From the NCBI RefSeq assembly GCF_013390595.1, contig NZ_JACAWV010000022.1, positions 434,001-498,000 on the forward strand: 64,000 nt of DNA. The letters run 5' to 3'. Below are positions 6,713 to 59,818 of the stretch, in pieces. Source of the DNA: Rhizobium sp. RM. Its GTDB lineage: Bacteria > Pseudomonadota > Alphaproteobacteria > Rhizobiales > Rhizobiaceae. The notes below the pieces were generated by a model. The model was not told the origin of the DNA. It worked only from the letters and a program-made list of their open reading frames with translations, and ran no database searches. Position numbers and translations under genes: made by a program. Each line of letters opens with the position of its first letter. Position 1 is the stretch's first letter.

Positions 6713-6781
6713 ATGCTGGCTTTCATGATCGTTCTATCGATCGTCACGTCATTCGCAGCCGAGTACCTTTTTCTCGATTGA
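6713..6781 (+). CDS. 22-residue putative membrane peptide
   Basis: ATG at 6713 with GGAG eight bases upstream, TGA at 6779. The product is almost entirely one hydrophobic segment (starts MLAFMIVLSIV, ends AAEYLFLD). No family recognised. First of three tiny membrane-protein genes in a row on this strand. A real small inner-membrane protein is plausible because of the ribosome site and context, but so short a frame could also be chance. Confidence 0.4.
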   Translation: MLAFMIVLSIVTSFAAEYLFLD

Positions 6782-6871
6782 CGTAAGGAGCCGGTTTTCT
6801 GAACGCCAGATGAACAAGCCATTCAAGGAAGTTTCAGAGGCGCGATGCTAATCGATTTTTATGATTGACGC

Positions 6872-6896
6872 GGAACATGCATGGACATGGCGCGTT
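6872..6896 (+). promoter_or_regulatory. sigma-EcfG (general stress response) promoter
   Basis: GGAAC at 6872-6876, 16 bases, then CGTT at 6893-6896, an exact match to the alphaproteobacterial EcfG/RpoE2 consensus. It ends 27 bases before the ATG of the 59-residue membrane protein at 6924. Confidence 0.7.
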
Positions 6897-6923
6897 CGGA
6901 TCAAATGAACAAGGAATGGACAG

Positions 6924-7103
6924 ATGTTTGTAAAAGAAAAACAGTCTACCTCGGCGAAAATCAGCGTCATCAGCACCGCCTGGACAATGCTGGTCATCGC
7001 GATGGTGGCAACAACGTTTAGCCTTTATGAACAGAAGGCCGAACATCAGGGCCCGGAATATCCGCAACTCACCGCCCGCTATCAGTACATGAACTACTAC
7101 TGA
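6924..7103 (+). CDS. 59-residue single-pass membrane protein
   Basis: Begins MFVKEKQSTSAKISV, then one membrane segment at about residues 12-34 (ISTAWTMLVIAMVATTF), then a short polar tail rich in tyrosine ending YQYMNYY. The ATG has AAGGA eight bases upstream and an exact sigma-EcfG promoter ends 27 bases upstream. No family recognised. Probably made under general stress together with the next gene. Confidence 0.65.
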   Translation: MFVKEKQSTSAKISVISTAWTMLVIAMVATTFSLYEQKAEHQGPEYPQLTARYQYMNYY

Positions 7104-7146
7104 TAATTGAGGCTCAATCCCCCGTCTAAGAAAACGGAGACATGCC

Positions 7147-7281
7147 ATGACCACAGTACTGACAGCGCTTCTTGCCCTCATCAGCCTTATGTTCGTGGCT
7201 TCCATGGTCTCTGCCGTCGCAGAAATGCGGCGTGAAGGCGAGGATTTGAAAGAAGCCATGAAGCGCAACCGGGTCTTCTGA
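7147..7281 (+). CDS. 44-residue membrane protein with charged tail
   Basis: ATG at 7147 with GGAG seven bases upstream. Residues 3-24 form one hydrophobic helix (MTTVLTALLALISLMF...), followed by a charged, probably helical tail (AEMRREGEDLKEAMKRN). Starts 43 bases after the 59-residue gene and ends 38 bases before a terminator, so the two probably share the sigma-EcfG transcript. No family recognised. Confidence 0.6.
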   Translation: MTTVLTALLALISLMFVASMVSAVAEMRREGEDLKEAMKRNRVF

Positions 7282-7319
7282 CGAGAACCTGAGCGCGACA
7301 GCAACGTGATTCTTATTCG

Positions 7320-7350
7320 ACCGTCCGGATTTCCGGGCGGTTATGTTTTG
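7320..7350 (+). terminator. rho-independent terminator
   Basis: ACCGTCCGG (7320-7328) pairs with CCGGGCGGT (7333-7341), one G-T pair, loop ATTT, followed by TATGTTTTG. Closes the small membrane-protein transcription unit. Confidence 0.65.
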
Positions 7351-7799
7351 TCATCGGCAGCAGCGCCGGCCAACCCTGCCTCCGAATGCGAGCAATGCCC
7401 CTGCCTCCTGATCTCAGCCACCGATCGATGCGCACCTGCATACCGAAAAACCCATTCATGCCAATGGCTTGGTGAATTCGGGTTTATATTCGACAGCGAA
7501 ATAACGACGCTGGAAGCGCTCACAAGCAGCAAGAAACGATGCGACGGCTGCGCCGGCAGCCGCCTTTTGCCGGGAGAACGACAGCGCTTGCCGGGTGAGA
7601 TCACAGAACCGTTTTTGCCAAACCCCGTTTTTCCAAGGGAAATTCCCTTCAATTTCCGTTTGGATTGTTTTAAGGAACCCCGATACGGTGCAGCCGGCTA
7701 TGAACGCCGCTGCGGCCATGCCCGGTGTTTTCGCGTCGCTTTGACCAGCACGCTTGGCGCCTGAGTGGCAAACGATGTTCTTTTGAGGTTTGCATAACG
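7351..7799. other. 449-base stretch with no convincing gene
   Basis: Lies between the terminator of the small-protein unit and ppiD. It should hold the ppiD promoter. A minus-strand frame (7456-7719, 87 codons) has no ribosome site and no recognised family. In relatives tpiA is often divergent from ppiD; it is not here. Confidence 0.4.
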
Positions 7800-9692
7800 A
7801 TGCTCGATTCCCTGAGAAATGCTTCTCGAACCATGGCAGCAAAGCTGCTGCTTCTCCTGCTTGTTGTTTCTTTCGGCATCTGGGGTGTCTCCGCATCGCT
7901 TGTCACGTCGAATTCCCACGCGGTGGTGACCGTTGGCGACCAGACGGTTGGCCCGGAGGAATTCCGTCTCGCTTACCAGCGGCAGATTTCCGACCTGAGC
8001 CGCCAGTTCGGCACACGTCTGACGACCGAACAGGCCAAGGCCTTCGGCATTGACCGTCAGGTCTTCAGCCAGCTGGCCGCAGGCGCGGCTCTGGACGAAC
8101 TGGCCTCGAAGATGAACCTCGGCCTGTCCGAAGACCGGCTTGCCAACCTCATCGCCGAAGACCCCGCCTTCAAGTCGGTCAACGGCCAGTTTGACCGCAA
8201 TCTGTTCAGCGAGCGTCTGCGCAACTCCGGTTTCCGCGAGGATGATTACATCAAGGAGCGCAGCAAGGTTGCGGTTCGTAGCCAGATCGTCGAAGCCGTG
8301 TCCGATGGCTTCAAGGCGCCGCAGGTCCTGGTGGACGCGCTCAAGCAATATCGCCACGAACAGCGTTCGGTGGATTATGTGATCCTCTCCAACGCCGTCA
8401 TTCCTCCGGTCAAGGCACCGGGCGACGACGTGCTGACGCCGTGGTTCGAAACCAACAAGTCGAAATATCGCGCTCCGGAATTCCGCAAATTCACCTATGT
8501 TAAGCTTGAGCCATCGGATATTGCCGATCCGACCGCGATCACCGACGCCCAGATCACCGAATATTACGACAGCCACAAGGACAGCTTCCGCACCGCCGGT
8601 CGCCGCACCGTCGAGCAGCTCACCTTCCCGAACAAGGAAATGGCCGAAGCTGCCGCAGAGCAGATCCGCCTTGGCAACACCACCTATGACCAGGTCGTCA
8701 AGGATCAGGGCAAAACGGCGTCTGACGTGATGCTCGGCGAATTCACCCGCGACACCGTTCCTGATCCGGCGCTGGCCGATGCGGTCTTTGCCGTTCAGAA
8801 GGATGGCGGCGTAACGCGGGTCGTCGAAGGTGCATTTGGTCCGGTCGTTCTGCGCGTTACCGGCATCACGCCGGAAACGACCAAGACGCTGGATGAATCG
8901 AAAGAGGAAATCCGCAAGGATCTCGCAACCGCTGCCGCGGCTGAAGAAATCACCAACGTTCATGACCGTTACGAAGACCTGCGCGCAGGCGGCTCCTCGC
9001 TTGCCGACGCCGCCAAGGAACTGAACCTCAAGCCCGTCACCATCGCTGCCGCCGATGCCTCCGGCCTCGACGAAAAGGGCGACACCATTCAGGGTCTGCC
9101 CTCCCCGCAGCTCGTTTCTGACGTGTTCAAGACCGAGCCAGGTACAGAAGCGCTGCCGATCAACCTTGGTCGCGAAGGCTACATTTGGTTCGACGTCGAT
9201 GAAATCATCGCAGCCCGCGACCGCACGCTGGCCGAAGTCCGTGACGATGTCGTCGCCGACTGGACGGCAGAGCAGCAGCGCACGGCACTTGCCGCCAAGG
9301 CGGACGAGCTGAAGGCACGCGTCGAAAAGAGCGAAACGCTGGAAACCATTGCTGGCGAACTCGGCCTTGCCGTCGAGCAGAAGTCGGGCCTGCGCCGCAA
9401 CGGCGAGGACGCGATCTTCGGTCAGCAGACGATCGCCGCTGTATTCTCCGGTGGCGACGGCATGGTCGGCGCAGCCGCGGATGCTGATGGCTCCAGCCGC
9501 ATTCTCTTCAAGGTCACATCCGTCGACGCCAATGCACCGGCAGATGCGCTGACCAACGATGACCAGCAGTTGACGGCCATTGCCTCGGCAGCCGGCGACG
9601 ACATGCTCGACCAGATGGTCAACCGTCTGCAGAACGATTATGGTGTCACCATCAATCAGCCCCTCGCCGATCAGGCGATGGTCGGCTTCTAA
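7800..9692 (+). CDS. ppiD: membrane-anchored SurA/PpiD-type peptidyl-prolyl isomerase
   Basis: Periplasmic folding factor held in the inner membrane. One membrane segment at about residues 12-32 ([19 protein letters not shown]) is followed by a SurA N-terminal chaperone domain and a parvulin-type PPIC domain at roughly residues 245-370. The length of 630 matches PpiD. Start is the ATG at 7800 with GAGG upstream; 25 further upstream residues in frame are unconserved. trpD follows after 17 bases, and the ppiD-trpD-trpC order is typical of rhizobia. Confidence 0.92.
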
Positions 9693-9709
9693 GCGGGAGG
9701 CTTGAACAC

Positions 9710-10723
9710 ATGGCCGAACTGAAGCCGCTGATTGCCAAGGTCGCCAACGGGGAAAGCCTCAACCGCGAAGAATCGCGAGCGGCTTTCGACATCCTGATGT
9801 CCGGTGAGGCCACCCCGTCGCAGATCGGCGCATTTCTGATGGCGCTGCGCGTTCGCGGTGAAACGGTCGACGAAATCGTCGGCGCGGTGTCATCGATGCG
9901 GGCGCGCATGTTGCCAGTCAAGGCGCCTGCGGACGCCATCGATATCGTCGGCACGGGCGGCGACGGCATCGGCACCTACAACATCTCGACCCTGGCTTCG
10001 ATCATTGTTGCCGGCACGGGCGTACCGGTGGCAAAGCACGGCAACCGGGCGCTGAGCTCAAAATCCGGTACGGCCGATGCGCTTTCCGCGCTCGGCGTGA
10101 AGCTCGATATCGGCCCTGACATGATTGCACGCTGCATTGCCGAAGCCGGTCTCGGCTTCATGTTTGCGCAGCTGCACCACTCGGCCATGCGCCATGTCGG
10201 TCCGACCCGCGTCGAGCTTGGCACACGCACGGTGTTCAACCTGCTCGGCCCGCTGTCCAACCCGGCAGGCGCAAAACGCCAGCTGCTCGGCGTCTTCTCG
10301 CTCCGTTGGCTGGTGCCGCTGGCCGAAGTGCTGCGTGACCTCGGTTCGGAAAGCATCTGGGTTGTCCACGGCGATGGCATGGATGAAGTGACCACCACAG
10401 GCGTCACCCATGTTGCAGCACTGGAAAACGGCAAGATCCGCACCTTTGATCTGACGCCGAAGGATTTCGGTGTCGACGTAGCGAAAATGGACGACCTAAA
10501 GGGCGGCGACGGCATTGCCAACGCGGCTGCCCTGCGCGAAGTTCTCTCCGGCAAGCGCAACGCCTATCGCGACGTTTCGCTCTGCAACGCTGCCGCATCG
10601 CTGGTGATCGCCGGCAAGGCGGAAACGCTTGGCGATGCCATGAAGATCGCATCCGCTGCACTCGATGACGGCAAGGCTGCCGCCGCACTCGACCGCCTGG
10701 TCGCCGTTTCCAACGAGGAATGA
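9710..10723 (+). CDS. trpD: anthranilate phosphoribosyltransferase
   Basis: Moves phosphoribose from PRPP onto anthranilate, second step of tryptophan synthesis. Motifs include [14 protein letters not shown] (PRPP binding), [15 protein letters not shown], and the [10 protein letters not shown] anthranilate loop. Length 337 is normal and the protein is not fused to an amidotransferase. Followed by trpC after 10 bases. Confidence 0.97.
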
Positions 10724-10733
10724 GAGCCGCACC

Positions 10734-11549
10734 ATGAGCGACATTCTGAAGAAGATCGAAGCTTACAAGCTGGAAGAAATCGCCGCCGCCAAGGCAAAGG
10801 TTCCGGTTGCGGAACTGAAGGCGATGGCCGCAGACCAGACCGCACCACGCGGTTTTTACAAGGCGTTGCGGGCAAAGCAGGCGGAAGGCAAGTTCGGGCT
10901 GATTGCCGAGATCAAGAAGGCAAGCCCGTCCAAGGGCCTGATCCGTCCGGACTTCAATCCGCCGGCGCTCGCCGCAGCCTATGAAGCTGGTGGCGCTGCC
11001 TGTCTCTCCGTCCTGACCGATACGCCAAGCTTTCAGGGTGCACCGGAATTCCTGACCGCGGCACGCAATGCCTGCGCGTTGCCGGCACTGCGCAAGGATT
11101 TCATGTTCGACACCTACCAGGTGCATGAAGCCCGCGCCTGGGGCGCCGACTGCATTCTGCTGATCATGGCCTCGCTGTCGGACGATGACGCGAAACGCCT
11201 TGAAGACGAAGCGCTCGCGCTCGGCATGGATGTGCTGGTGGAAGTGCACGACGCCGAGGAGACCGAACGGGCACTGAAGCTGTCCTCACCCCTGCTTGGC
11301 ATCAACAACCGCAATCTGCGGACCTTCGAGGTCAGCCTCGAAACCAGCGAGAAGCTGGCCGGTCTCGTGCCCGCCGACAAGCTTTTGGTGGGTGAAAGCG
11401 GCATCTTCACCTTCGAGGATTGCAAGCGTCTCGAAAAGAGCGGCATCAGCACCTTCCTGGTTGGCGAAAGCCTGATGCGCAAGGACGACGTGACGGCGGC
11501 AACCGTGGCGTTGCTGACAGGCAAGACCGGCGTTCTGGCCGCAGAATGA
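10734..11549 (+). CDS. trpC: indole-3-glycerol phosphate synthase
   Basis: Closes the indole ring of CdRP. It is the single-function form of 271 residues, without a TrpF domain. Motifs are [33 protein letters not shown] and VGESLM. The ATG at 10734 gives the standard N-terminus [12 protein letters not shown]. Its stop overlaps the moaC start (ATGA). Confidence 0.97.
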
Positions 11550-12037
11550 GCGGCGACGGCAAGCTGACCCATATCGATGCGTCCGGCGAGGCGCATATGG
11601 TCGACGTTGGCGACAAGGCCGAAACGGTCCGTGTCGCCATCGCCGAAGGTTTCGTAAAAATGAAGCCGGAAACACTTGCCCTGATCCGTGAAGGCAACGC
11701 CAAGAAAGGTGATGTCATTGGTACGGCAAGGCTGGCCGGCATCATGGCTGCCAAACAGACCGCAAGTCTCATACCGTTGTGCCACCCGCTGATGTTGACC
11801 AAGGTGGCGGTAGACATCACCGAAGACAGCGCCCTGCCCGGCCTGCGCGTCGAGGCGATGGCGAAGCTGACGGGAAAAACCGGCGTAGAGATGGAGGCGC
11901 TGACTGCCGTCTCCGTCGCCTGCCTGACGATCTATGACATGGCGAAAGCCGCCGACAAGGCGATGGAAATCATCAACATTCGCCTCGTTGAAAAAAGCGG
12001 CGGAAAATCCGGCGATTTCTGGCGCGAGGAACCCTGA
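11546..12037 (+). CDS. moaC: cyclic pyranopterin monophosphate synthase
   Basis: Acts after MoaA, converting 3',8-cyclo-GTP to cPMP in molybdenum cofactor synthesis. 163 residues. [16 protein letters not shown], the LIPLCHPL loop and [19 protein letters not shown] are diagnostic. Start overlaps trpC by four bases and the stop overlaps moeA by one (TGATG), so trpD-trpC-moaC-moeA look like one coupled operon. Confidence 0.97.
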
Positions 12038-13263
12038 TGAAACCGCTGCTGCCCGTTGACGATGCCAAGGCCCGCCTTCTGGATGCGGCGGCTCCCGTTA
12101 CGGAAAGCGAGTTGCTGCCGCTGTCGGTGTGCGACGGTCGGGTTCTGGCTGCCGATCTGCCTGCCCTTCTCACCCAGCCACCTTTCGATGCGTCGGCCAT
12201 GGACGGTTATGCGCTCAGCGCCGCTGATACCCCGGCCATCGGCTCCGTTCTGACCGTCATTGGCCAGGCTGCCGCCGGACATGCATTTGAGGGAACGCTC
12301 GGCCATGGCGAAGCCGTCCGCATCTTCACCGGCGCGCCCGTGCCGAAAGGTGCAGACGCCATTCTCATTCAGGAAGACGCCGACCGTCTCGACGAGAACA
12401 GGATTCGAACGACGTTCGAAGTCAGGGTCGGACAGCATATTCGCCCGCGCGGGCAGGATTTTGCCGAAGGTGAAACCGTTCTTGCAGCCGGGCGTCAGCT
12501 CGATTTCACCGCATTGACGGTTGCGGCGGCAATGAACCACGCGAAACTTGCCGTCTACCGCAAGCCGCTGATCGCCATCCTCGCCACCGGCGACGAACTG
12601 TTGCCGCCCGGAAGCAGCCCGAACCCGGCTCAGATCATCGCCTCGAACACATTCGGTGTCTCGGCCCTTGCCAAAAATGCAGGCGCGGACGTTCTCGATC
12701 TCGGCATCATTCCTGACGACGATACCTTGATCCGTGCGGCAATCAGCAAGGCAATCGCCGCAAAGGCGGATGTTCTCGTGACACTTGGCGGCGCATCTGT
12801 CGGCGACCATGATCTTGTGCAGGCCGCCTTGAAGGCCGAAGGCATGCAGCTCGATTTCTGGCGCATTGCCATGCGGCCCGGAAAGCCGTTGATGGTTGGG
12901 GCGATCGGCGACATGCAGGTTCTCGGCCTGCCGGGAAATCCCGTGGCAAGCCTTGTCTGCAGCCTGCTGTTCCTGGAGCCGCTGGTCCGCAAGATCGCCC
13001 GTCTTGCCCCCATGCCGCGAATGGGCGTCGCGACGACCGCAACCGCGCTCAAGGCAAACGATCACCGTCAGGACTATGTTCGCGCCCGGCTGATCGTCGA
13101 TGATGGACAGGAAACAGTTGCCGAAGCCTACACCAAGCAGGATTCGTCGATGATGAAGATCCTCGCTCATTCCGACTGCCTGATCGTTCGTCCACCCAAT
13201 GCGCCTGAACTTGCGGCAGGTTCACAATGCCCTATCATTCGCTTCCGGGCCCAGAACGTCTGA
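12037..13263 (+). CDS. moeA: molybdopterin molybdotransferase
   Basis: Inserts molybdate into adenylated molybdopterin. 408 residues with the four-domain MoeA layout: SAMDGYAL near residue 49-56, IFTGAPVPKGADAI, the MoCF-type central domain with TGDELLPPG and TLGGASVGDHD, and GLPGNPVAS near 306. Translationally coupled to moaC. In many rhizobia lexA follows moeA; here an A/T-rich gap and a GGDEF gene follow instead. Confidence 0.96.
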   Translation: MKPLLPVDDAKARLLDAAAPVTESELLPLSVCDGRVLAADLPALLTQPPFDASAMDGYALSAADTPAIGSVLTVIGQAAAGHAFEGTLGHGEAVRIFTGAPVPKGADAILIQEDADRLDENRIRTTFEVRVGQHIRPRGQDFAEGETVLAAGRQLDFTALTVAAAMNHAKLAVYRKPLIAILATGDELLPPGSSPNPAQIIASNTFGVSALAKNAGADVLDLGIIPDDDTLIRAAISKAIAAKADVLVTLGGASVGDHDLVQAALKAEGMQLDFWRIAMRPGKPLMVGAIGDMQVLGLPGNPVASLVCSLLFLEPLVRKIARLAPMPRMGVATTATALKANDHRQDYVRARLIVDDGQETVAEAYTKQDSSMMKILAHSDCLIVRPPNAPELAAGSQCPIIRFRAQNV

Positions 13264-13643
13264 AACATTCCGACGATGTCACCTGCCTGCGACAGTAACG
13301 CCGGTGAAATTTCCCAATAATATCGTTTAAAATATCATCGGCGCAAAGAACACTCTGTTGTATGCGGTCGTTCCGGTGTAAGTGGGCGCTCCCACCGCAA
13401 AGCTTCGTCCACGGCAAGACTTGCATTGTTGAACAATTGCAACCGGACGACCTGCCGGACGGCACGATCAAGAAAAACGACCAAAGAACGAAAAGAAATT
13501 TGAAAACCTATACGTTGTCAAATAAGTACAAATTCCGAAAGATAAATTCAGTGAACAAAAATTACTTCGCTGTAAATTAGGCTTTTCAAAACAAGTTTCC
13601 TAACAATAATCTCTAAAGTAAGCAGACTCACTGGAGTTCCTTG
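13264..13643. other. A/T-rich intergenic stretch before the diguanylate cyclase gene
   Basis: About 380 bases, clearly richer in A and T than its surroundings, especially 13485-13615. No convincing gene; the one plus frame (13362-13580) ends in a lysine/asparagine-rich tail typical of non-coding DNA. Probably holds the promoter of the GGDEF gene. No direct GTTC-N7-GTTC SOS box was seen. Confidence 0.4.
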
Positions 13644-14714
13644 ATGAACACGGTATCCACGCCGAAGGCGACGGGGCCTGATATCGCCGCGCAGATCACC
13701 TATGCGATGCGCAGCATGGGCGTTTCGCCAATTCCGCGTAACTACCAGCTTTTCTACGAAGCCTATATCGGCTCCAACCCGGCCTTGACGAGAGATCTCA
13801 CGGCACTCGGCAGCCGGGCAACGCAGGAAGAGCTGGACGATCTATGCGCGCACTACTTCGACACCAGCGCTGTCAGACTGATCGACGATGTGCAGGAGCG
13901 CGTGCGCCAGGAGCTGGAAGCCCTGTTAAACACGCTGCGTCGCGAACAATCCTCGATCGAGAACTACAACAGAATTCTCGGCGAGACGCGCCAGCGCATC
14001 GATGACAAGAACGCGACCAGCACCAACATCCTGAAAAACGCCATTGCCCTTCTGGCAGAGGCCACAGGAACAAAGCTTGTCGACGGCGAAAAGGCCGTCA
14101 ACGACGTCAACCGCCATGCCGAGGAAATGCATCAGGTTCGTCTGGAGCTGGACGAATACAAGCGCATCGCCAACACCGACTCCCTGACACGGCTTTCCAA
14201 CCGTCGCGCTTTCGACGACCGGCTTGCCAGCATCTATGACAGCTCACTTGGACTGAACTACACAACGCTCGCCCTGCTGGATATCGACCACTTCAAGAAG
14301 ATCAACGACACCTTTGGTCATCCGGTTGGTGACAAGATCCTGGCAACTGTCGCTTCCGTCATTCGCGCCAATGTGCGCAAGGATGGTTTTGTCGCCAGAA
14401 GCGGCGGTGAGGAATTCGCCATTATTCTGGATGGCAATACGCCTGAAGAAGTCATGGTGGCCTGTGAACGCATCCGCCTTGCGCTGGAAAGCACGCCATT
14501 CCGTCACTCCAAGTCGGGCATCGATTACGGCCCGGTGACGATTTCGATCGGCTTCGCGTCTGCTGCCCAGGCGGACAATCCCGGCGAGCTCTACGCCCAT
14601 GCCGATACGGCGCTCTACCATGCCAAGGAAACGGGCCGTAATCGCACCGTCTTTTTTGAAGAGGGCATGCAGAAGAACTACGTCGGCAAGAACTGGCTCA
14701 TCTACAAGAAATAA
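13644..14714 (+). CDS. diguanylate cyclase (soluble, C-terminal GGDEF)
   Basis: Makes cyclic-di-GMP from two GTP. 356 residues, no membrane segment. The first 165 residues are helical with a probable coiled coil at about 85-170. The GGDEF domain covers about 178-340, with the active site GGEEF at 254-258. The product-inhibition I-site should read RxxD five residues before GGEEF; here it is RKDG (245-248), so the aspartate is missing. The ATG at 13644 has TGGAG seven bases upstream. By position it may be the counterpart of A. tumefaciens DgcB, but that is from memory. Strong terminator follows. Confidence 0.9.
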   Translation: MNTVSTPKATGPDIAAQITYAMRSMGVSPIPRNYQLFYEAYIGSNPALTRDLTALGSRATQEELDDLCAHYFDTSAVRLIDDVQERVRQELEALLNTLRREQSSIENYNRILGETRQRIDDKNATSTNILKNAIALLAEATGTKLVDGEKAVNDVNRHAEEMHQVRLELDEYKRIANTDSLTRLSNRRAFDDRLASIYDSSLGLNYTTLALLDIDHFKKINDTFGHPVGDKILATVASVIRANVRKDGFVARSGGEEFAIILDGNTPEEVMVACERIRLALESTPFRHSKSGIDYGPVTISIGFASAAQADNPGELYAHADTALYHAKETGRNRTVFFEEGMQKNYVGKNWLIYKK

Positions 14715-14741
14715 AGGCTGGAACGCCGAAAAAGCTGATAA

Positions 14742-14772
14742 AAAAGGCCGCGAAAGCGGCCTTTTCTCTATT
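14742..14772 (+). terminator. rho-independent terminator
   Basis: AAAAGGCCGC (14742-14751) pairs exactly with GCGGCCTTTT (14756-14765) around GAAA, followed by a T-rich stretch. Ends the GGDEF transcript and may also serve the convergent PNPOx gene. Confidence 0.85.
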
Positions 14773-14795
14773 TTCGCGTCACCACTTTCGCGATG

Positions 14796-15416: not shown

Positions 15417-15474
15417 CTGCCCTCTTCCCTCATCGACATCAGACCATGCCCCCCTCAGGAGAACAACAGCCCGC

Positions 15475-22571: not shown

Positions 22572-24197
22572 CTATTCAAGGAAACCTGATGGGTTCACAG
22601 GCGTCGCATCCTTGCGAACCTCGAAGTGAACCTGCGGACGCTTTGCACTGCCAGTCATGCCGGAGGTGGCGATTGTCTGGCCACGCTGGACCTTCTGACC
22701 GCGCTGAACGTCCAGATTGGCGGCGTTGCCGTAAACGGTGACCTTACCGTCGTCATGGCGAACCAGAACGGTGTTGCCGAGCTGTTTCAGGCCGTTACCA
22801 GCGTAGATAACCACACCGTTTTCGGCTGCCTTGATCGGCGTCCCCTCGGGAACCGAGATATTGATACCATCGTTGCGGCTGCCATCGACGTTGTCGCCGA
22901 AGCTGTTGATGACGGCGCCACGGACGGGCCAGCGATATTTGCCGATGCCGGTGGATTCCGGAGCGATGGAGGCAACGTCGGTCTTCTTCTCGATGTCGGC
23001 GACACTTGCCGAAGCAGCCGGAGCCGAAGGTGCGGCAGCAGCAGCCGGTGCCTTGTAGGGCTCGGGCTTCGCAGATGCGGTTTCGACCGGCTTGGCAGGT
23101 GCGGCTTCCTTGGCAGGAACCGATGCCGTTTTGATCGAGTCAGTCGCGGCACCCGGCATGGTCAAGGTCTGACCGACCCGAATGTTTTCATTCGAAATGC
23201 CGTTTGCGGCCTTGAGCGCTGCAACCGAAACACCGTTTTCACGGGCGATCTTGGCGAGGCTGTCGCCCGGCTGAACTTTGTAACCGCCAGTTGGAGGCAG
23301 CGGCTTGCCACCCGGAGGTGTCAGCTTGCCGTTTTCAGCAGAAACCTTGTCACGGGCGGCGCCCTGCGACGGCAGAACGGCAACGTTCTGATCCGGCGTA
23401 CGAAGCGGCGTCGGCTGATCGCCATTACCGTTCAGCGCGATGTTGTCAGCAGCGGCCTTGGCCGGATTGCGGGACTGGCCGAACTTCGGAATGAGGATCG
23501 ACTGACCAGGCTGTACTGCCGAAGCGCTCTTCAGACCGTTGACGCGCAGCAGTTCCTTTTCCGGAACGCCGTAGCGGTTGGAAAGCGTCTTGATGTTTTC
23601 ACCGGCACGCAGGGTAACCGACGATGCACCATCCGTGTGCCAGCCGTTATTGTCCGCCTTGATGGTGGACGTGGTGATGTTATCGGGACGTACCGCAGCC
23701 TGCTGGGTTGGCGGCGCCAGAGTTTGGGCGGCCTTGGGAGCAGCCGACGGGAACGGCTGCGCCATCGCTTCGCTGCGGGTCGACGGTTCGCGGCTCGCAG
23801 GAGCACCAGGCGCGGAGAGTTCCGAACGCTGGACCGGCGATGCGGAGGCCGAACGGGCCATCGACGGCTGAACGCCACCACCATAACCGCCGGACTGCGG
23901 ATAGCCCTGACCACCCATGCCCGAATTGGAGGCCATGTTCTGGTTGGCATAACCACCCTGCGGAGCCGAAGCATAACCGCCATTCATGTCGCCCTGCGGC
24001 ACGGGAACCTGCCCGTACGCACCTGCGCCTTGTCGGTTAGGGATAGATGCCGTCGTCATCTGGTCCGGTCCACTGGAGAAGAGGCCGCTGAACCGCGATG
24101 CATCCGAGCTACAGCCCGTTGCGACGCTTGCCAGCAATGCCGCTGCGAACATTTTTGCGACTGATTTTCCGATTTGAGACGAATTACTCATACGCAT
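22572..24197 (-). CDS. lipoprotein with two LysM domains and a degenerate LytM (M23) domain, NlpD/DipM-like
   Basis: 541 residues. A signal peptide with lipobox VATGC places the lipidated cysteine at residue 29. A Gly/Gln- and Pro-rich linker follows, then LysM repeats at about 190-240 and 298-345 and an M23/LytM domain at about 415-541. The zinc ligands of active M23 enzymes (HxxxD and HxH) are replaced: RNDGINIS at the first site and QVHFE at the second. As in E. coli NlpD and EnvC, it is therefore probably an activator of a peptidoglycan amidase at division. Start chosen at the ATG 24197; ATG 24191 is equally possible. Upstream neighbours pcm and surE are the genes that often precede nlpD. 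Confidence 0.85.
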   Translation of the reverse strand: MRMSNSSQIGKSVAKMFAAALLASVATGCSSDASRFSGLFSSGPDQMTTASIPNRQGAGAYGQVPVPQGDMNGGYASAPQGGYANQNMASNSGMGGQGYPQSGGYGGGVQPSMARSASASPVQRSELSAPGAPASREPSTRSEAMAQPFPSAAPKAAQTLAPPTQQAAVRPDNITTSTIKADNNGWHTDGASSVTLRAGENIKTLSNRYGVPEKELLRVNGLKSASAVQPGQSILIPKFGQSRNPAKAAADNIALNGNGDQPTPLRTPDQNVAVLPSQGAARDKVSAENGKLTPPGGKPLPPTGGYKVQPGDSLAKIARENGVSVAALKAANGISNENIRVGQTLTMPGAATDSIKTASVPAKEAAPAKPVETASAKPEPYKAPAAAAAPSAPAASASVADIEKKTDVASIAPESTGIGKYRWPVRGAVINSFGDNVDGSRNDGINISVPEGTPIKAAENGVVIYAGNGLKQLGNTVLVRHDDGKVTVYGNAANLDVQRGQKVQRGQTIATSGMTGSAKRPQVHFEVRKDATPVNPSGFLE

Positions 24198-48709: not shown

Positions 48710-48814
48710 ATGTCCGGTTTCGCGAACCTCATTCCGCTCTTCATCTGCGCGCTGTTCATCTATGTTTTCTTCCGCTGGGTCGCAAAAGACATCCAGACTC
48801 CGAAAAAGAAATAG
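48710..48814 (+). CDS. 34-residue membrane protein
   Basis: MSGFANLIPLFICALFIYVF then a basic tail ending PKKK. One membrane segment at about 6-22. GAGA lies six bases before the ATG. No family recognised. It sits in a field of other small membrane-protein genes, which raises the odds that it is real. Confidence 0.5.
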   Translation: MSGFANLIPLFICALFIYVFFRWVAKDIQTPKKK

Positions 48815-48873: not shown

Positions 48874-48898
48874 GGAACCTGTTTGCCCGCACGGCGTT
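48874..48898 (+). promoter_or_regulatory. sigma-EcfG (general stress response) promoter
   Basis: GGAAC at 48874-48878, 16 bases, CGTT at 48895-48898. Exact consensus, ending 26 bases before the lipoprotein ATG at 48925. Confidence 0.7.
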
Positions 48899-48924
48899 TT
48901 CCACGACGCAATTCGGAGGATATG

Positions 48925-49215
48925 ATGAACAAGATCGCGCCTTATGCCGCAACCGTACTGAGCCTTGGGCTGACAGGCTGCACCGTCGCAGCGCCGGCCT
49001 ATGAAGTGGAGCCGATTCCCGGCAGCATCATCTATAATGGGCAACCGCGCACCAAGTTGACGAAGTCGCCAATCGGCAGCACGTTCAGCCATGAGTTCCG
49101 GATCGACAGCAGCACGAAGGCGATCGAGACCTATCGCATCGCGCCGGATCGCTCGCTACAACTCATCAATCGCCGCATCGTGCGCGACTGGCCGATGTTT
49201 GGACGCGACGACTAA
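48925..49215 (+). CDS. small lipoprotein
   Basis: 96 residues. Lipoprotein signal MNKIAPYAATVLSLGLTGC with the lipidated cysteine at 19, then a mature part without a recognised domain (contains IPGSIIYNGQPRTKL and IETYRIAPDRSLQLINRR). GGAGGA lies five bases before the ATG; another ATG three bases earlier is too close to it. Preceded by an exact sigma-EcfG promoter, so likely stress-induced envelope protein. Confidence 0.75.
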   Translation: MNKIAPYAATVLSLGLTGCTVAAPAYEVEPIPGSIIYNGQPRTKLTKSPIGSTFSHEFRIDSSTKAIETYRIAPDRSLQLINRRIVRDWPMFGRDD

Positions 49216-49613: not shown

Positions 49614-49703
49614 ATGAAAAAAGCCCTGTTCATTACCCTTCTCTCCTGCCTCGTCATCGGTATCGTCGGCCACCTCGTCGTCGCTTTCGTGATCTCCGGT
49701 TGA
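49614..49703 (+). CDS. 29-residue membrane peptide
   Basis: MKKALFITLLSCLVIGIVGH then a further hydrophobic stretch to the end. One membrane segment spanning nearly the whole peptide. AGGA lies ten bases before the ATG. 52 bases after the DUF982 gene, so possibly cotranscribed. No family recognised. Confidence 0.5.
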   Translation: MKKALFITLLSCLVIGIVGHLVVAFVISG

Positions 49704-49753: not shown

Positions 49754-49778
49754 GGAACCACAACACGCATTTGTCGTT
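49754..49778 (+). promoter_or_regulatory. sigma-EcfG (general stress response) promoter
   Basis: GGAAC at 49754-49758, 16 bases, CGTT at 49775-49778. Exact consensus, ending 31 bases before the ATG at 49810. Confidence 0.7.
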
Positions 49779-49809: not shown

Positions 49810-49899
49810 ATGCGAGACGGATTGAATGGTGTTCTGGAAATCTCATTGATTGGCGTGGTTATTGCCAGCTGCCTGATGATGGTCAGCCTGCCGATCTGA
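49810..49899 (+). CDS. 29-residue membrane peptide
   Basis: Short polar start MRDGLNGVLE, then one hydrophobic segment (ISLIGVVIASCLMMVSLPI). A very strong Shine-Dalgarno site (AAGGAGGAAGAG) six bases before the ATG and an exact sigma-EcfG promoter upstream make this tiny gene credible. Terminator follows 50 bases later. No family recognised. Confidence 0.65.
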   Translation: MRDGLNGVLEISLIGVVIASCLMMVSLPI

Positions 49900-49984: not shown

Positions 49985-50000
49985 TGGAAGGAGGCTAGGA

Positions 50001-51771: not shown

Positions 51772-51873
51772 ACAGCAAAACGGTTTGACCAATATCAAGG
51801 TGATGTCCGCAAAACCGGACCACGCTTCACCATCGAAAATGCCGATATAATGTCGGCCAACGAGGAGAATAGC

Positions 51874-52719: not shown

Positions 52720-52751
52720 TCGTCGCCGCGCATCTCGTCAGGCAACAGTCA

Positions 52752-52790
52752 GACGCCCCGTCACTCTCAGCCGGGGCGTCCTTTCTTTCC
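52752..52790 (+). terminator. rho-independent terminator after the Usp gene
   Basis: GACGCCCCG (52752-52760) pairs exactly with CGGGGCGTC (52772-52780), followed by CTTTCTTTCC. Confidence 0.75.
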
Positions 52791-52925
52791 GGTTTTGGAT
52801 CGTCCACAGCCCCAAACATTGCAGAACTGCCGTGAAATGGTGGCCGCAGCAGCGCAAAGCTTGCCTTTTTGCTGGACTTGCGGCTATTAGCCCAACCCAT
52901 CACCAATTTGACCGGACGGTAAACG

Positions 52926-53423
52926 ATGTCCCTGCCCGATAAAGCCTTTCCCGTTTCCTGGGATCAGTTCCACCGCGACGCCCGTGCACTCGCCTGGCGT
53001 CTTGCCGGCCTCGACCGCGAGTTCAAGGCCATTGTCTGTATTACCCGCGGCGGCCTCGTACCGGCTGCCATCATTTCCCGCGAGCTGAACATTCGTCTGA
53101 TCGACACCGTCTGCATCGCCACACGTCACGATTATGTGAACCAGGGCGAGACGGTATTGCTGAAGGGCATTGCTCCGGAACTTGCAGCCGATGGCGGCGA
53201 AGGCGTTCTGGTTGTGGACGACCTGACGGACACCGGCAAAACTGCCATTGAAGTGCGCGAGATGCTGCCGAAGGCACACTTTGCCTGCGTCTACGCAAAG
53301 CCGAAGGGCGTGCCGACCATCGACACCTTCGTGACCGAAGTGAGCCAGGACACCTGGATCTACTTCCCCTGGGATATGGGCTTCACCTACCAGGAGCCGA
53401 TCGCCAAGGGTTCGCGCGGCTGA
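52926..53423 (+). CDS. gpt: xanthine(-guanine) phosphoribosyltransferase
   Basis: Purine salvage: xanthine or guanine plus PRPP to the nucleotide. 165 residues. The PRPP motif is [14 protein letters not shown] (about 92-105), [10 protein letters not shown] lies near 38-47 and YFPWDMG near the end. Length and sequence match the Gpt type. Confidence 0.93.
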
Positions 53424-53443
53424 TAGCGAAAGCACATGCAAGC

Positions 53444-53473
53444 AAAAACCGCCTGTTACGGGCGGTTTTTTTA
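53444..53473 (+). terminator. rho-independent terminator after gpt
   Basis: AAAAACCGCC (53444-53453) pairs with GGGCGGTTTTT, followed by a run of seven T. Confidence 0.88.
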
Positions 53474-54088
53474 TGGGGAAAAGGTTCTTTTCCAATCCGG
53501 CAAAAAAGGCCGAAAAAATGATTGCGTCACGAATATGTCGCACCCCAAAAGCCGCAAAATCAGCATTCCGCTAGGAAAGCCAGCCTCGCGCAAGCTTCAA
53601 ATTTATGCGCCAAGTCACTGATTTTTCTAAGAGCTTTTCCTTTCCCCGTTTTCCACAGGCCCTACACACAATATCTTGTGGTTAAAAAACCCTTTCAATC
53701 TATGGCTTGACGAATCTGTGCTGTGTGGGGAAAGTGGCAGTCATGTTGCGGCGGCAACGGAATCGGGTGTCCTGATCATCGGTTCTTTCCAGTTTCAGTT
53801 GATGCGTTTGCCTGCGTTTCGGCCATGAGGGGGTGGAACGTAGAGCTGTTTTCGCGCGCTGATTTTGTCGCCAAAAACATGATACGGGGACTGGCGCTGA
53901 CAAGCTGTGGATACTATATTTAGTAGCTGAATTCGCTTGCAGCCAAATTCGCCACGAGATACAGGGATGACATCTACGGATGAACATCCCATTCATATCG
54001 GCAACAACCGGCTGCACGCAGACTGCGCGTCGCTGGAACGAACTTTTGCGCCCTTTTGCTGGCGCCCAATGGACGAGGACAGGAACCA
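53474..54088. other. long upstream region of nrdJ
   Basis: About 615 bases without a convincing gene. Contains an NrdR-like box at 53666-53681 and a DnaA-box-like TTTTCCACA at 53649-53657. No cobalamin riboswitch signature (B12 box) was found, though NrdJ needs B12. Confidence 0.4.
53666..53681. promoter_or_regulatory. NrdR-box-like site upstream of nrdJ
   Basis: ACACAATATCTTGTGG is a near-palindrome fitting the NrdR box pattern (acaCwAtATaTwGtgt). NrdR represses ribonucleotide reductase genes in response to ATP/dATP. No second box at the usual spacing is clear, and the site is about 400 bases from the nrdJ start. Confidence 0.5.
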
Positions 54089-57000
54089 ATGCGCATTGAA
54101 CGTCGCTTCACGAAGCCCGGCCAGTCGCCTTACGCGGAGATCGATTTCCGCAAGGCCGTCAGTGAAATCAAGAACCCGGATGGTTCCATCGTGTTCCGTC
54201 TGGCGGATATCGACGTTCCCGCGCAGTTCAGCCAGGTTGCGACCGACGTTCTCGCGCAGAAATACTTCCGCAAGGCCGGCGTTCCGAAGATCCTGAAAAA
54301 GGTTGAAGAGAACGACGTTCCATCCTTCCTGTGGCGTTCGGTTGCCGACGAAAAGGCCATGAAGGATCTTCCGGAAGGTGAGCGTTACGGCTCTGAAACC
54401 GACGCTCGTCAGGTTTTTGACCGTCTTGCCGGCACCTGGACCTATTGGGGCTGGAAGGGCAAATATTTCTCGTCCGAAGAAGATGCCCTCGCCTTCCGTG
54501 ATGAGCTTGCCTACATGCTGGCCACCCAGCGCGTTGCGCCGAACTCTCCGCAATGGTTCAACACCGGCCTGCACTGGGCTTATGGCATCGACGGTCCTGG
54601 CCAGGGCCATTTCTATGTCGACCCTTTCACCGGCAAGCTGACCAAGTCCAAGTCCGCTTACGAACATCCCCAGCCGCATGCCTGCTTCATCCAGTCCGTC
54701 GAGGACGATCTGGTCAACGAAGGCGGCATCATGGACCTGTGGGTGCGTGAAGCGCGCCTGTTCAAGTACGGTTCCGGCACCGGCTCCAACTTCTCCTACC
54801 TGCGTGGCGAAGGCGAAAAGCTTTCGGGCGGCGGCAAGTCCTCCGGCCTGATGAGCTTCCTCAAGATCGGCGACCGCGCCGCTGGCGCCATCAAGTCTGG
54901 CGGCACGACCCGCCGCGCCGCAAAGATGGTTGTTGTCGACGCCGACCACCCGGATATCGAAGCCTACATCGACTGGAAGGTGAACGAAGAGCAGAAGGTC
55001 GCGGCTCTCGTGACCGGCTCCAAGATCGTCGCCCGTCACCTGAAGGCGATCATGAAGGCCTGCGTCAATTGCGAAGCCGACAATGGCGATTGCTTTGACC
55101 CGACCAAAAACCCTGCCCTGAAGCGCGAAATCCGCGCCGCCAAGAAGGACCAGGTTCCGGAAAACTACATCAAGCGTGTCATCCAGTTCGCCGAACAGGG
55201 TTACAAGGACATCCAGTTCAAGACCTATGACACCGACTGGGATTCTGAAGCCTACCTCACGGTATCCGGCCAGAACTCCAACAACTCCGTGTCACTGAAG
55301 GATGACTTCCTGCGCGCAGTTGAAAACGACGGCGACTGGAACCTGACGGCACGCCGCGACGGCAAGGTCATGAAGACCCTGAAGGCGCGCGACCTGTGGG
55401 AAAAGATTTCGCATGCCGCATGGGCATCGGCAGATCCCGGCCTGCACTTCAACACGACCATGAACGACTGGCACACCAGCCCGGCTGCCGGCCCGATCCG
55501 CGCATCCAACCCGTGCTCGGAATACATGTTCCTCGACGATACGGCCTGCAACCTTGCTTCGCTGAACCTCATTCAGTTCAAGGATGCCGCCACCAAGAAC
55601 ATCAACATTGCCGATTACGAACATGCGGTTCGTCTGTGGACGATCGTTCTCGAAGTTTCGGTCATGATGGCGCAGTTCCCGTCCCGCCAGATTGCCGAAC
55701 TCTCCTACGAGTACCGGACACTCGGCCTCGGCTACGCCAACATCGGCGGCCTGCTGATGTCGTCGGGCATTCCTTATGACAGCAACGAGGGCCGCGCGAT
55801 TGCCGGTGCTCTGACAGCGATCATGACTGGCGTTTCCTATGCGACCTCGGCTGAAATGGCGGGTGAGCTTGGTCCGTTCCCGGGCTTTGCACCGAACCGC
55901 GACAACATGCTGCGCGTCATCCGTAACCACCGCCGTGCAGCGCAGGGCCTGGCTTACGGTTATGAAGGCCTGTCGGTGAACCCGGTTGCGCTGATCCACG
56001 CTGATTGCCCGGACCAGGACCTCATCACCCATGCAACCGCGGCCTGGGACAAGGCCCTCGAGCTTGGCGAACAGCACGGCTACCGCAACGCCCAGACCAC
56101 CGTTATCGCGCCGACCGGCACGATCGGCCTCGTCATGGATTGCGACACGACCGGCATCGAGCCTGACTTCGCGCTGGTAAAGTTCAAGAAGCTCGCCGGT
56201 GGCGGTTACTTCAAGATCATCAACCGCGCTGTTCCCGACGCACTGCGTTCGCTCGGTTACTCCGAAAGCCAGATCGCCGAGATCGAGGCTTACGCAGTTG
56301 GCCACGGTAACCTGAACCAGGCTCCGGGCGTCAATCCCGGTACGCTGAAGGCAAAGGGCTTCACCGACGAGAAGATCGAAGCTGTCAACGCTGCTCTCAA
56401 GAGCGCCTTCGACATCAAGTTCGTCTTCAACCAGTGGACGCTTGGCGCAGACTTCCTCAAGGACACGCTGAAGGTTTCCGACGAGCAACTGTCCGACATG
56501 ACCTTCAACCTGCTGGACCATCTCGGTTTTGGCAAGAAGGACATTGAAGCGGCCAACGTGCATGTTTGCGGCGCGATGACGCTGGAAGGCGCACCGTTCC
56601 TGAAGAACGAGCATCTGCCTGTCTTCGATTGCGCCAACCCCTGCGGCAAGATCGGCAAGCGTTATCTCTCGGTGGAATCCCACATCCGCATGATGGCTGC
56701 TGCCCAGCCGTTCATCTCGGGTGCGATCTCCAAGACGATCAACATGCCGAACGACGCAACCGTTGAAGATTGCGGCGCAGCCTACATGCTGTCCTGGAAG
56801 CTGGCGCTGAAGGCCAACGCACTTTACCGCGATGGTTCCAAGCTCTCGCAGCCGCTCAATGCCTCGCTGGTCGAGGATGAAGAGGACGAGGATGCACTGG
56901 AAGAGCTGATCGCTCAGCCACAGGCAGCCCAGGCCGTGACCATCACGGAAAAGATCATCGAGCGCGTTGTCGAGCGTGTGACCCGTGAGCGTGAAAAGCT

Positions 57001-57898
57001 GCCGAACCGCCGCCAGGGTTACACCCAGAAGGCTGCTGTCGGTGGACACAAGGTCTACCTGCGCACCGGGGAATTCGGTGATGGCCGTCTCGGCGAAATC
57101 TTCATCGACATGCACAAAGAAGGCGCTGCTTTCCGTGCGATGATGAACAACTTCGCCATCGCCATCTCGCTTGGCCTGCAATACGGCGTGCCGCTGGAAG
57201 AATATGTGGAGGCCTTCACCTTCACCAAGTTCGAACCGGCTGGCATGGTTATCGGCAACGACGCAATCAAGAACGCCACGTCGATCCTTGACTACGTGTT
57301 CCGTGAACTCGCCGTTTCCTACCTCGGCCGTCACGACCTCGCACATGTCGATACGTCGGACTTCTCGAACACGGCACTCGGCAAGGGCATCCAGGAAGGC
57401 AAGACCAACCTCGTTTCCACCGGCTGGACCCGTGGTTACAAGCCGACGCTTGTTTCCAGCAACGGCAGCGAGCGTTCGTCTTCCGAGCCGAAAGGTTCCG
57501 CAACCGCAGCACCTGCCCGCGCTTCGGCCAGCGTGACCTCGATTTCCGGCAATGCAGCCCGCAAGCTGGAACCGGTCATCGCAGCCTCGGCCTCCGAAAT
57601 CGTCGCCTTCAAACGCGACTACGAGGAACGCGCCAAGGAACTAGCGGAAGAGATTGCCGAAGAAGCTTTGGCAACCGAAACCGAACAGGCAGCAACAGCC
57701 CTCTTCTCCGACAAGGCAGCAGCTGATGCCGCATCTGCCAAGACGGAAGCCAAGAAGGTCGAAAACGAACGCCGGATGCGCTCCATCGCACAGGGCTACA
57801 CGGGCAACATGTGCTCCGAGTGCCAGAACTTCACCATGGTGCGCAACGGCACCTGCGAGAAGTGCGACACATGCGGCGCGACGAGCGGTTGCTCTTGA
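54089..57898 (+). CDS. nrdJ: vitamin B12-dependent ribonucleoside-diphosphate reductase (class II)
   Basis: Makes deoxyribonucleotides with adenosylcobalamin, independent of oxygen. 1269 residues. The N-terminal part and alpha/beta barrel include [31 protein letters not shown] and [24 protein letters not shown] long linker leads to a C-terminal TSCPD-like domain and a terminal cysteine cluster ([19 protein letters not shown]) that probably rereduces the active site. The ATG at 54089 has AGGA upstream. It is the only reductase gene in the window; many rhizobia rely on NrdJ alone. Confidence 0.97.
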
Positions 57899-57956
57899 GA
57901 AATACAGGGATAAGTGGTGAAGCCACTTCCCAACAACTTACGTTGACGTGAATATG

Positions 57957-57994
57957 TCCCCGCAGCGATTTGCCTCGCTGCGGGGATTTTTCGT
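57957..57994 (+). terminator. rho-independent terminator of nrdJ
   Basis: TCCCCGCAGCGA (57957-57968) pairs exactly with TCGCTGCGGGGA (57975-57986), followed by TTTTT. Confidence 0.9.
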
Positions 57995-58121
57995 AGGCGA
58001 TCGCTGTGGACTGCCTGCGTCCTCGTGGTTACTCAAAAATGCTGCGTGAAACGCACCATTGTCGGCAGGACAGCGGCCATTGGCACACCATTTCAAATCT
58101 ACTGGAAACCCGTAGTTCGGC

Positions 58122-58400
58122 ATGTTATATTTCGAGTGGGATGAGCAGAAGGCAGTCGCCAATCTTGCCAAGCATGGCGTCAGTTTTGAAACTGCGGCGC
58201 ATGTCTTCAACGATCCGTTTGCAGTCGATATTGAAGAACGTTCAATGGAGTACCACGAAATCAGAAGGCGTATTCTGGGACTTGGCAATGGATTGCTGCT
58301 GACCGTCATTTACACGGAGCGCAGTGAAAAAGTCCGCATCATCTCAGCACGAAAGTCAACGCGGGCAGAGCGTAGGGAGTATGAAGACGATGGGTGGTAA
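58122..58400 (+). CDS. brnT: BrnT-family toxin
   Basis: 92 residues matching BrnT, a RelE-fold ribonuclease toxin: FEWDEQKAVANLAKHGVSFE (4-23), AAHVFNDPF, the RRRILGLGNG strand and the end RIISARKSTRAERREYE. First gene of a toxin-antitoxin pair; the stop overlaps the next gene's start region. Confidence 0.9.
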   Translation: MLYFEWDEQKAVANLAKHGVSFETAAHVFNDPFAVDIEERSMEYHEIRRRILGLGNGLLLTVIYTERSEKVRIISARKSTRAERREYEDDGW

Positions 58401-58722
58401 AACAGATCAAACCGACTGGGCTCGTCTTCACGCGATGACCGATGAAGAAGCGGAAATTAATGCTCTGGCCGACCCCGACAATCGTCCTCTCTCCGCAGAA
58501 CAGTTTGCCGCTGCAAAAAGAATGCCTCGCATAAAAATCATTCGACGCGCATTGAAGCTGACACAAGAAGAGTTTTCGGCCCGATACCATATTCCGCTTG
58601 GAACACTTCGCGACTGGGAACAGGGCCGTAGCGAACCGGATCAGCCGACCAGAGCTTATCTTAGAGTTATTGCTGTCGATCCAGAAGGAACGGCCGCAGC
58701 GCTAAGAAAAGGTGCGGCTTGA
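58381..58722 (+). CDS. HTH (XRE/BrnA-like) antitoxin
   Basis: 113 residues. The N-terminal part is acidic (TDEEAEINALADPD), and the C-terminal helix-turn-helix is RRALKLTQEEFSARYHIPLGTLRDWEQGR (about 61-89), followed by the family ending. This is the HTH partner common with BrnT toxins, not the classic ribbon-helix-helix BrnA. Starts inside brnT; ATG 58390 is an alternative start. Such antitoxins bind the toxin and repress their own promoter. Confidence 0.85.
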   Translation: MKTMGGKTDQTDWARLHAMTDEEAEINALADPDNRPLSAEQFAAAKRMPRIKIIRRALKLTQEEFSARYHIPLGTLRDWEQGRSEPDQPTRAYLRVIAVDPEGTAAALRKGAA

Positions 58723-58729
58723 GCCTGTC

Positions 58730-59500
58730 ATGTCTCTGGCGACATTTAAGACGATGACTCCATACATTTCAATTTGCGTAGTCGGGGTATCATTGTTCTG
58801 GGCACCCGTTGCGCAGGCAACCTGCTTCGACGTCTCAAAGAATGAGCCTTCTGCGTTGAGCGGCCATCTTACCCATCGTATCTTCGCGGGTCCGCCAAAT
58901 TTCGAGGATGTTCAGAAGGGTGACGCCCCGGAACCGGGCTATGTCCTGAAGCTTGATGATCCGATCTGCCTTACCGGCGACGACTTTGCCGATCCGGAGA
59001 GCACATTTGATGAGGTCCAACTCGTTCCCGACGAAATGACCGGGAAGGACATGGCACGGTTGAGAGATACCGATGTCTTCGTTGACGTCGTCAAGCCAAT
59101 GCCGGCAATGACGGGACACCATCATCGGCCTCTTGTCGCCTGGGTAAAGGCAATTGCCCCAGCCCGCGACATCACCGAAAGTTACGGGACGGCAGCAACC
59201 ACGATTGAGGCTTTCTATGCGGCTCTGCAGTCCGGCGACGGCAAGCTTGCATCAACATTCGTCGTGCCAGAGAAAACAAGGAAAGGCGCCTTCAGCCCGC
59301 AGGCTCTGTCCAGCTTCTACGGATCGTTGTCAGAGCCAATCTCGTTGATCGATATCCACAAGGTCGACGAGACACACTTCTCCGTTCGCTATCGTTTCAC
59401 AAGTGGAAAGCGGCCATGCGACGGCTCCGCAGCGATCACCACAGTGAAACGTGACGGAAGAGATTTCATTCAGTCAATTCGCGCGGAGAATGGCTGCTAG
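58730..59500 (+). CDS. secreted DUF4431-like protein
   Basis: 256 residues. The N-terminal hydrophobic signal (ISICVVGVSLFWAPVAQA) has cleavage likely near AQA-TCF. The first part (SALSGHLTHRIFAGPPNFEDVQKGDAPE, then DPICLTGDDF) fits DUF4431. The second part, from about 150, is a separate fold with cysteines near the end. Starts 7 bases after the antitoxin stop; a GTG overlapping that stop and an ATG at 58754 are alternatives. Function unknown. Confidence 0.7.
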   Translation: MSLATFKTMTPYISICVVGVSLFWAPVAQATCFDVSKNEPSALSGHLTHRIFAGPPNFEDVQKGDAPEPGYVLKLDDPICLTGDDFADPESTFDEVQLVPDEMTGKDMARLRDTDVFVDVVKPMPAMTGHHHRPLVAWVKAIAPARDITESYGTAATTIEAFYAALQSGDGKLASTFVVPEKTRKGAFSPQALSSFYGSLSEPISLIDIHKVDETHFSVRYRFTSGKRPCDGSAAITTVKRDGRDFIQSIRAENGC

Positions 59501-59527
59501 AGCGCTTATCAAGCCTTTGTCATCAAA

Positions 59528-59553
59528 GGAACATCCCCGCGCATCGCTGCGTT
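59528..59553 (+). promoter_or_regulatory. sigma-EcfG (general stress response) promoter
   Basis: GGAAC at 59528-59532, 17 bases, CGTT at 59550-59553. Exact consensus, ending 34 bases before the ATG at 59588. Confidence 0.65.
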
Positions 59554-59587
59554 GACCTTGACGACAACCGATCGAGGTCTGGGGTAG

Positions 59588-59818
59588 ATGATGTTGCCAT
59601 TTGATAGACTGAAGCTGATGCAGGAGCCGGGGCGATGGCCACCGTTTTCGGTAAGTGAGCGAAAACCGCGCGAGTGGCTGCTGACAATCAGCGGTCTTGT
59701 TCTGCTGTTCGTGCTCTCGACAGCCATTGCTATGGGCTACCTCGTGACCCGCCACCCCGGCAAGGCGGAACCGAATCCCGGTATTGCGGAAGAGCAGCGC
59801 ATCGAGCAGGGAAGCTAG
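59588..59818 (+). CDS. 76-residue single-pass membrane protein
   Basis: About 28 polar residues, then one membrane segment at about 30-52 (WLLTISGLVLLFVLSTAIA), then a short polar tail. GAGG lies ten bases before the ATG. An exact sigma-EcfG promoter upstream supports a real, stress-induced gene. Convergent with the PAS-GGDEF gene. No family recognised. Confidence 0.6.
   Translation: MMLPFDRLKLMQEPGRWPPFSVSERKPREWLLTISGLVLLFVLSTAIAMGYLVTRHPGKAEPNPGIAEEQRIEQGS

Follow-up and report, generated by a model that had tools for sequence, protein, structure and literature searches.

Four candidate EcfG promoters preceding tiny envelope-protein genes in a 64-kb stretch of a Rhizobium sp. RM genome

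The 64,000-nt stretch of Rhizobium sp. RM DNA presented above, referred to here as the window, corresponds to contig positions C11:434001-498000 of a 5.59-Mb genome in 26 contigs. It carries four short open reading frames (ORFs) of 59, 96, 29 and 76 codons, each preceded by an exact match to GGAAC-N16/17-CGTT, a promoter motif reported as GGAAC-N16-CGTT for the general stress sigma factor EcfG1 of R. etli (PMC3892343). Three of the ORFs encode proteins with a single predicted transmembrane (TM) helix and the 96-amino-acid (aa) ORF encodes a lipoprotein (Table 1). The first-pass annotation of this DNA had listed these four sites and placed them 26 to 34 bases before an ATG; the sites are exact and their coordinates correct, and the measured gaps from site end to start codon are 27, 26, 31 and 34 nt, respectively. 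A second ATG adjoins the start of the lipoprotein ORF (at 48922) and that of the 76-aa ORF (at 59591). The window contains one exact site more than the four first listed, all five being on the + strand; the additional site, GGAAC-N17-CGTT at 22849-22874, lies antisense within a LysM/M23 peptidase gene of the - strand. It is most simply explained as a chance match and may otherwise give rise to an antisense transcript. Dinucleotide shuffles of the window yielded a mean of 1.18 sites, and five were reached in one of 100 shuffles.

Table 1. Candidate EcfG promoters, the genes behind them and the associated features of the 59-aa gene locus (window coordinates)
Feature	Coordinates	Strand	Remark
EcfG-type promoter GGAAC-N16-CGTT, 59-aa gene	6872..6896	+	
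59-aa single-TM protein gene	6924..7103	+	
EcfG-type promoter GGAAC-N16-CGTT, lipoprotein gene	48874..48898	+	
96-aa lipoprotein gene	48925..49215	+	lipobox LTGC
EcfG-type promoter GGAAC-N16-CGTT, 29-aa gene	49754..49778	+	
29-aa single-TM protein gene	49810..49899	+	
EcfG-type promoter GGAAC-N17-CGTT, 75/76-aa gene	59528..59553	+	
75/76-aa single-TM protein gene	59588..59818	+	
Palindromic box TGAA-N7-TGAA-N7-TTCA-N7-TTCA, FeuP-like	6601..6637	.	upstream of 22-aa ORF
22-aa hydrophobic ORF	6713..6781	+	coding pattern, no EcfG site of its own
Second palindromic box	6800..6836	.	35 nt before the -35 of the 59-aa EcfG promoter
44-aa hydrophobic ORF	7147..7281	+	43 nt past the 59-aa gene

Relatives were drawn from up to 39 genomes of Agrobacterium, the genus to which the present genome is assigned here, and from a family sample of 151 genomes representing 109 genera. 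Judged by their pattern of substitution, all four ORFs evolve as protein-coding genes: length and frame are kept, changes are concentrated at third codon positions, and the ratio of nonsynonymous to synonymous differences per site (pN/pS) is 0.19, 0.17, 0.21 and 0.25 for the 59-, 96-, 29- and 75-aa genes, in a sequence set that leaves out a paralog of the lipoprotein gene (L151) and one further locus (L067). None of the four proteins has a match in Pfam or NCBIfam, and they fall into separate ortholog sets, a judgment made without pairwise alignment; they are regarded as unrelated, and the earlier description of the products as a protein family is therefore not upheld. The accompanying statement that they are mostly unannotated is half right, in that relatives of the 96- and 59-aa proteins carry the label of hypothetical protein and the 75-aa protein has a single database match, to an unnamed entry. 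The 59-aa protein has 28 homologs, the named organisms among them being Rhizobium or Agrobacterium, and the lipoprotein has 305, of which 120 were listed. An alignment of 36 lipoprotein sequences contains the core EPIPGSITYxGQPRTKLTKSPIGST. When this protein was compared by profile with solved structures, no hit reached significance (best E 0.026). Its AlphaFold model, in which residues 53-89 are predicted to form a small antiparallel sheet (pLDDT about 85), has low confidence as a whole (mean pLDDT 66.8, pTM 0.45).

The promoters were followed across the same genomes. Because the search pattern fixes the identities of the -35 and -10 elements except for the first -10 base, the fair tests of conservation are presence counts and a rank test, in which the recurrence in relatives of each offset's own 5+4 bases was scored over 115-116 upstream offsets. 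The presence counts leave out the duplicates L071-L073 and the paralog L151, and for the 59-aa gene also three loci from other genera; those for the lipoprotein and 29-aa promoters refer to 36 genomes, without G014, G209 and G210. The rank test leaves out the window's own locus together with L151, L067, L071, L074, L103 and L355. The 59-aa gene was found in all 39 Agrobacterium genomes and its promoter in 38 of them, and two of the three loci from other genera also have the promoter. The lipoprotein gene is present in 36 of the 37 genus genomes searched, with GGAAC-N16-NGTT upstream in 36 of 36. For the 29-aa gene the strict motif is retained in 36 of 36 genomes, ahead of 32 distinct ORFs that are every one 29 codons long, while the 75-aa gene occurs in 38 of 39 genomes and has the motif in 23 of the 38. 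In the rank test the EcfG site was the best offset for the 29- and 75-aa genes and one of the top two for the lipoprotein gene, where the other one overlaps it; for the 59-aa gene it came second, the top offset falling inside a palindromic box that is considered below.

The genome encodes the regulators EcfG, NepR and PhyR. NepR gave one match in the genome, adjoining the gene for an extracytoplasmic function (ECF) sigma factor (ecfG) and a divergent phyR, and GGAAC-N17-CGTT lies about 45 nt upstream of phyR itself. We consider it highly likely, from sequence comparison, that each of the four sites is a direct EcfG promoter from which a small envelope-protein gene is transcribed with a short leader; membership of the four tiny genes in the known general stress regulon is very probable. 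The steps that lead to the promoter are described as established (PMC3188799; PMC3616915). Under stress, phosphorylated PhyR would bind NepR and thereby free EcfG, which would bring RNA polymerase to GGAAC-N16/17-CGTT, with the transcript beginning a few bases downstream. Each ORF would then be translated from its own Shine-Dalgarno site and the products would be directed to the inner membrane or, in the case of the lipoprotein, probably to the outer membrane. The genes would thus be EcfG-dependent and stress-induced, and their products would be small envelope accessory proteins, held by one predicted TM helix each or by a lipid anchor.

Several observations weigh against this reading. Genome-wide, the motif occurs 127 times, compared with 149 occurrences of the pattern read backwards and 139 of the pattern with N19/20 spacing; the motif is therefore no more frequent than its controls, and counting alone lends the claim no support. 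The -10 element of the lipoprotein promoter is CGTT in 21 of the 36 genomes and AGTT in the other 15. At the 75-aa gene, GGAAC is lost or altered in 15 of 38 genomes, which are the more distant congeners (L069, L070, L125-L131, L139-L144); ten have TGAAC-N16-CGTT and five a TGAAAC form, which suggests that the promoter has drifted or that the sigma factor has changed in these lineages. The 59-aa gene of congener G014 (L135) is without an EcfG site, and so is the lipoprotein gene's own paralog in this genome (L151, C11:1181788-1182027), so that the two lipoprotein copies seem to be differently regulated. The motif may also be common to other sigma factors.

Since the count showed no excess, the analysis turned to placement and conservation. 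The placement test covered 100 of the 127 true-spacing sites and 83 of the 139 control sites (85 rows, one pair being doubly counted), with genes called around both by one codon-usage script, a simple one that misses short genes and left the 29- and 76-aa window genes uncalled. Intergenic positions accounted for 63 of the 100 true-spacing sites and 12 of the 85 rows of the wrong-spacing (N19/20) control (p 5.5e-12), or 10 of 83 once the doubly counted pair was removed (p 7e-13). Within 100 nt of 26 true sites, and of one control, a gene of 60 aa or more begins on the same strand. The first-pass annotation had named sites equally common away from gene starts as contrary to its claim; such an even spread was not seen, even though the raw number of sites is not in excess. 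We infer that roughly half of the exact sites in the genome look functional.

Intergenic sites have 37 predicted same-strand proteins within 200 nt, of which 20, picked by eye, were scanned. They include Ku, three CsbD proteins, a ferritin/Dps-like protein, DUF892, an MscS channel, a PRC-barrel protein, a short-chain dehydrogenase, a transglycosylase-associated protein and DUF1269. Ku, MscS and PRC-barrel genes are reported to be EcfG-dependent in Sphingomonas melonis Fr1, where the motif is given in the looser form GGAAC-N17-20-GTT (PMC6599016), and all three lie behind the motif here too. Tiny envelope ORFs, defined as ORFs of 20-100 aa with a ribosome site and a hydrophobic segment or lipobox that begin 18-70 nt past a site, were found at eight of the 63 intergenic sites. 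Looking the opposite way from these sites, the figure was one of 63 (p 0.03, of weak significance); at arbitrary, mostly coding positions it was 44 of 8586, a difference of strong significance. Four of these eight belong to the window itself, and it was for having these four behind sites that the window was picked; the remainder amounts to four of 59. On this evidence the regulon would consist mostly of ordinary stress genes, with tiny envelope genes forming it only in part. The EcfG assignment proposed at first pass is well supported by sequence, owing to the placement of the sites, the known stress genes behind the motif and the conservation of the promoters with their genes within the genus.

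The locus of the 59-aa gene may receive a further input. Two palindromic boxes of 37 bp lie there, one upstream of the 22-aa ORF and one upstream of the EcfG promoter, and the genome has no other exact copy; sequences with one mismatch occur at two further places and with two mismatches at three, and a reversed-pattern control gave zero matches in the genome. All 42 loci retain both boxes, exactly in 40 and with a single mismatch in one of the boxes in the other two. The EcfG site is present in 40 of the 42; L067 and L135, from which it is absent, have both boxes. Each box contains TTCA-N7-TTCA once per strand, a sequence at which the response regulator FeuP has been proposed to bind in Sinorhizobium meliloti (PMC3616915). 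The candidate FeuP box of S. meliloti is thus found inside each box here, whereas the boxes themselves are 37-bp palindromes in which two half-sites are direct and two inverted. Two other candidate binding proteins, ChvI and BvrR, were set aside, as the passages of literature at hand give other motifs for them or no letters.

Both ORFs flanking the 59-aa gene look like coding sequence. The 22-aa ORF was traced through 38 loci as 31 distinct ORFs, all of 22 codons with an ATG (pN 0.161, pS 0.480), and the 44-aa ORF is represented by 40 distinct ORFs (pN 0.194, pS 0.608). An EcfG site within 130 nt was found in none of 39 loci for the former and none of 42 for the latter, and the 44-aa ORF is possibly co-transcribed with the 59-aa gene.

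Conservation of the box makes it probable that a second input, besides the EcfG promoter, acts on the 59-aa gene. A serious competitor to EcfG control at this gene, to which we would nonetheless give less than even weight, is that it is chiefly the target of a putative FeuP-type regulator, with EcfG a minor input. The persistence of the boxes in every locus, including the two that have no EcfG site, their restriction to this place in the genome as exact copies and their resemblance to the proposed S. meliloti site all speak for such control, but the link to FeuP is drawn from the letters of the box, in S. meliloti, too, the assignment has the status of a proposal, and the explanation covers one of the four genes and is compatible with EcfG control. 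Equally tentative is the suggestion that the 22-, 59- and 44-aa ORFs form a membrane-peptide cassette (6601-7281) that might integrate a putative FeuP-type osmotic two-component input with the PhyR-EcfG stress input and so adjust the envelope.

For the four sites together, it is improbable that their main user is a different ECF sigma factor whose specificity overlaps that of the PhyR-controlled EcfG, for instance an RpoE6-like member of ECF26 or a second, non-canonical EcfG. Overlap of this kind has precedents, 27 of 40 RpoE6 targets in S. meliloti being reported to fall within the RpoE2 regulon (PMC6180224) and Agrobacterium tumefaciens C58 being cited with two EcfG factors (PMC3188799), but the ECF26 consensus is given as GGAATA/GT and not GGAAC/CGTT (PMC6180224), and phyR itself and typical stress genes stand under GGAAC-N16/17-CGTT in this genome. 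More doubtful still is the notion that the sites serve to transcribe small regulatory RNAs and that the tiny ORFs are incidental: EcfG-dependent non-coding RNAs are on record for S. meliloti, yet ORF lengths and frames are kept here and pN/pS is between 0.17 and 0.25 in all four genes. Least credible is a set of chance matches before small ORFs singled out at first pass, for, despite genome counts no higher than the controls and one intragenic site among the five of the window, orthologous promoters retain the -35, the -10 and the spacing in other species and the placement of sites is far from that of the spacing control, so that conservation already refutes chance for the 59-, 96- and 29-aa genes and argues less strongly against it for the 75-aa gene.

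With EcfG as the probable user of the four sites, the finding extends a known regulon, and its most interesting part is the conserved locus of tiny peptides, which may be under dual control. What is new here is the presence of palindromic boxes at the 59-aa gene and the 22-aa ORF. The regulons of R. etli EcfG1 and S. meliloti RpoE2 (ECF15) resemble the one described here in the motif GGAAC-N16-CGTT, in the NepR and PhyR partner genes and in the many targets without a function; in S. meliloti, 150 of 202 rpoE2-responsive genes are reported to have no predicted function (PMC3616915). They differ in that most targets here appear to be lineage-specific, since the 75- and 29-aa genes occur in one genus only of the family sample and the 59-aa gene in three of its 109 genera, and in that the connection to EcfG is drawn here from sequence. 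Within the literature on stress regulons and small proteins of Agrobacterium, no EcfG regulon of that genus came up by title or start of abstract, a survey in which subscription journals were mostly uncovered. The list of sites, with orthologs in up to 39 genomes, provides candidate direct targets, among them peptides of 24-76 aa of the kind that annotation is prone to miss. If these are EcfG-dependent, the role of tiny envelope proteins in the stress survival of a plant-associated genus could be tested by deletion.

Conserved tiny hydrophobic ORFs are also present beside the lipoprotein and 29-aa genes, at 48710-48814 (34 aa) and 49614-49703 (29 aa). Like the 22- and 44-aa ORFs, which begin at 6713 and 7147, these coding-looking ORFs have an EcfG site within 130 nt in none of the 22-42 loci compared.

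Outside the window, two further tiny ORFs behind the motif were evaluated by the rank test. A 28-aa ORF (L266) has the motif about 109 nt upstream in 20 of 29 loci (one of 30 being without the ORF); 24 of 116 offsets scored as well and it was not accepted as a further case. A 24-aa peptide, MNQIIYIVGLVVIVLAILSFFGFR (C20:334719-334790; L247/L348), which is one of the four tiny envelope ORFs behind intergenic sites outside the window, was accepted, the EcfG site being the best offset. Its gene is present in 39 of 39 genus genomes, with an EcfG-type motif in 30 of the 30 loci examined; the peptide is identical in 36 among the best matches listed and has two paralogs in this genome.

Another of those four, a 53-aa ORF (L026, C11 about 524700) with an entericidin domain and a Cys at residue 22, has GGAAC-N16-CGTT 62 nt before its start. 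In A. tumefaciens, Atu8019 is described as a 53-aa entericidin-type lipoprotein, studied with a C22A mutant and involved in outer membrane vesicle docking (PMC7296081). On the match in length and in Cys22 the L026 ORF is probably the ortholog of Atu8019, a sequence family unrelated to the four window proteins, and this lipoprotein, like the products of the window genes, probably belongs to the EcfG regulon.

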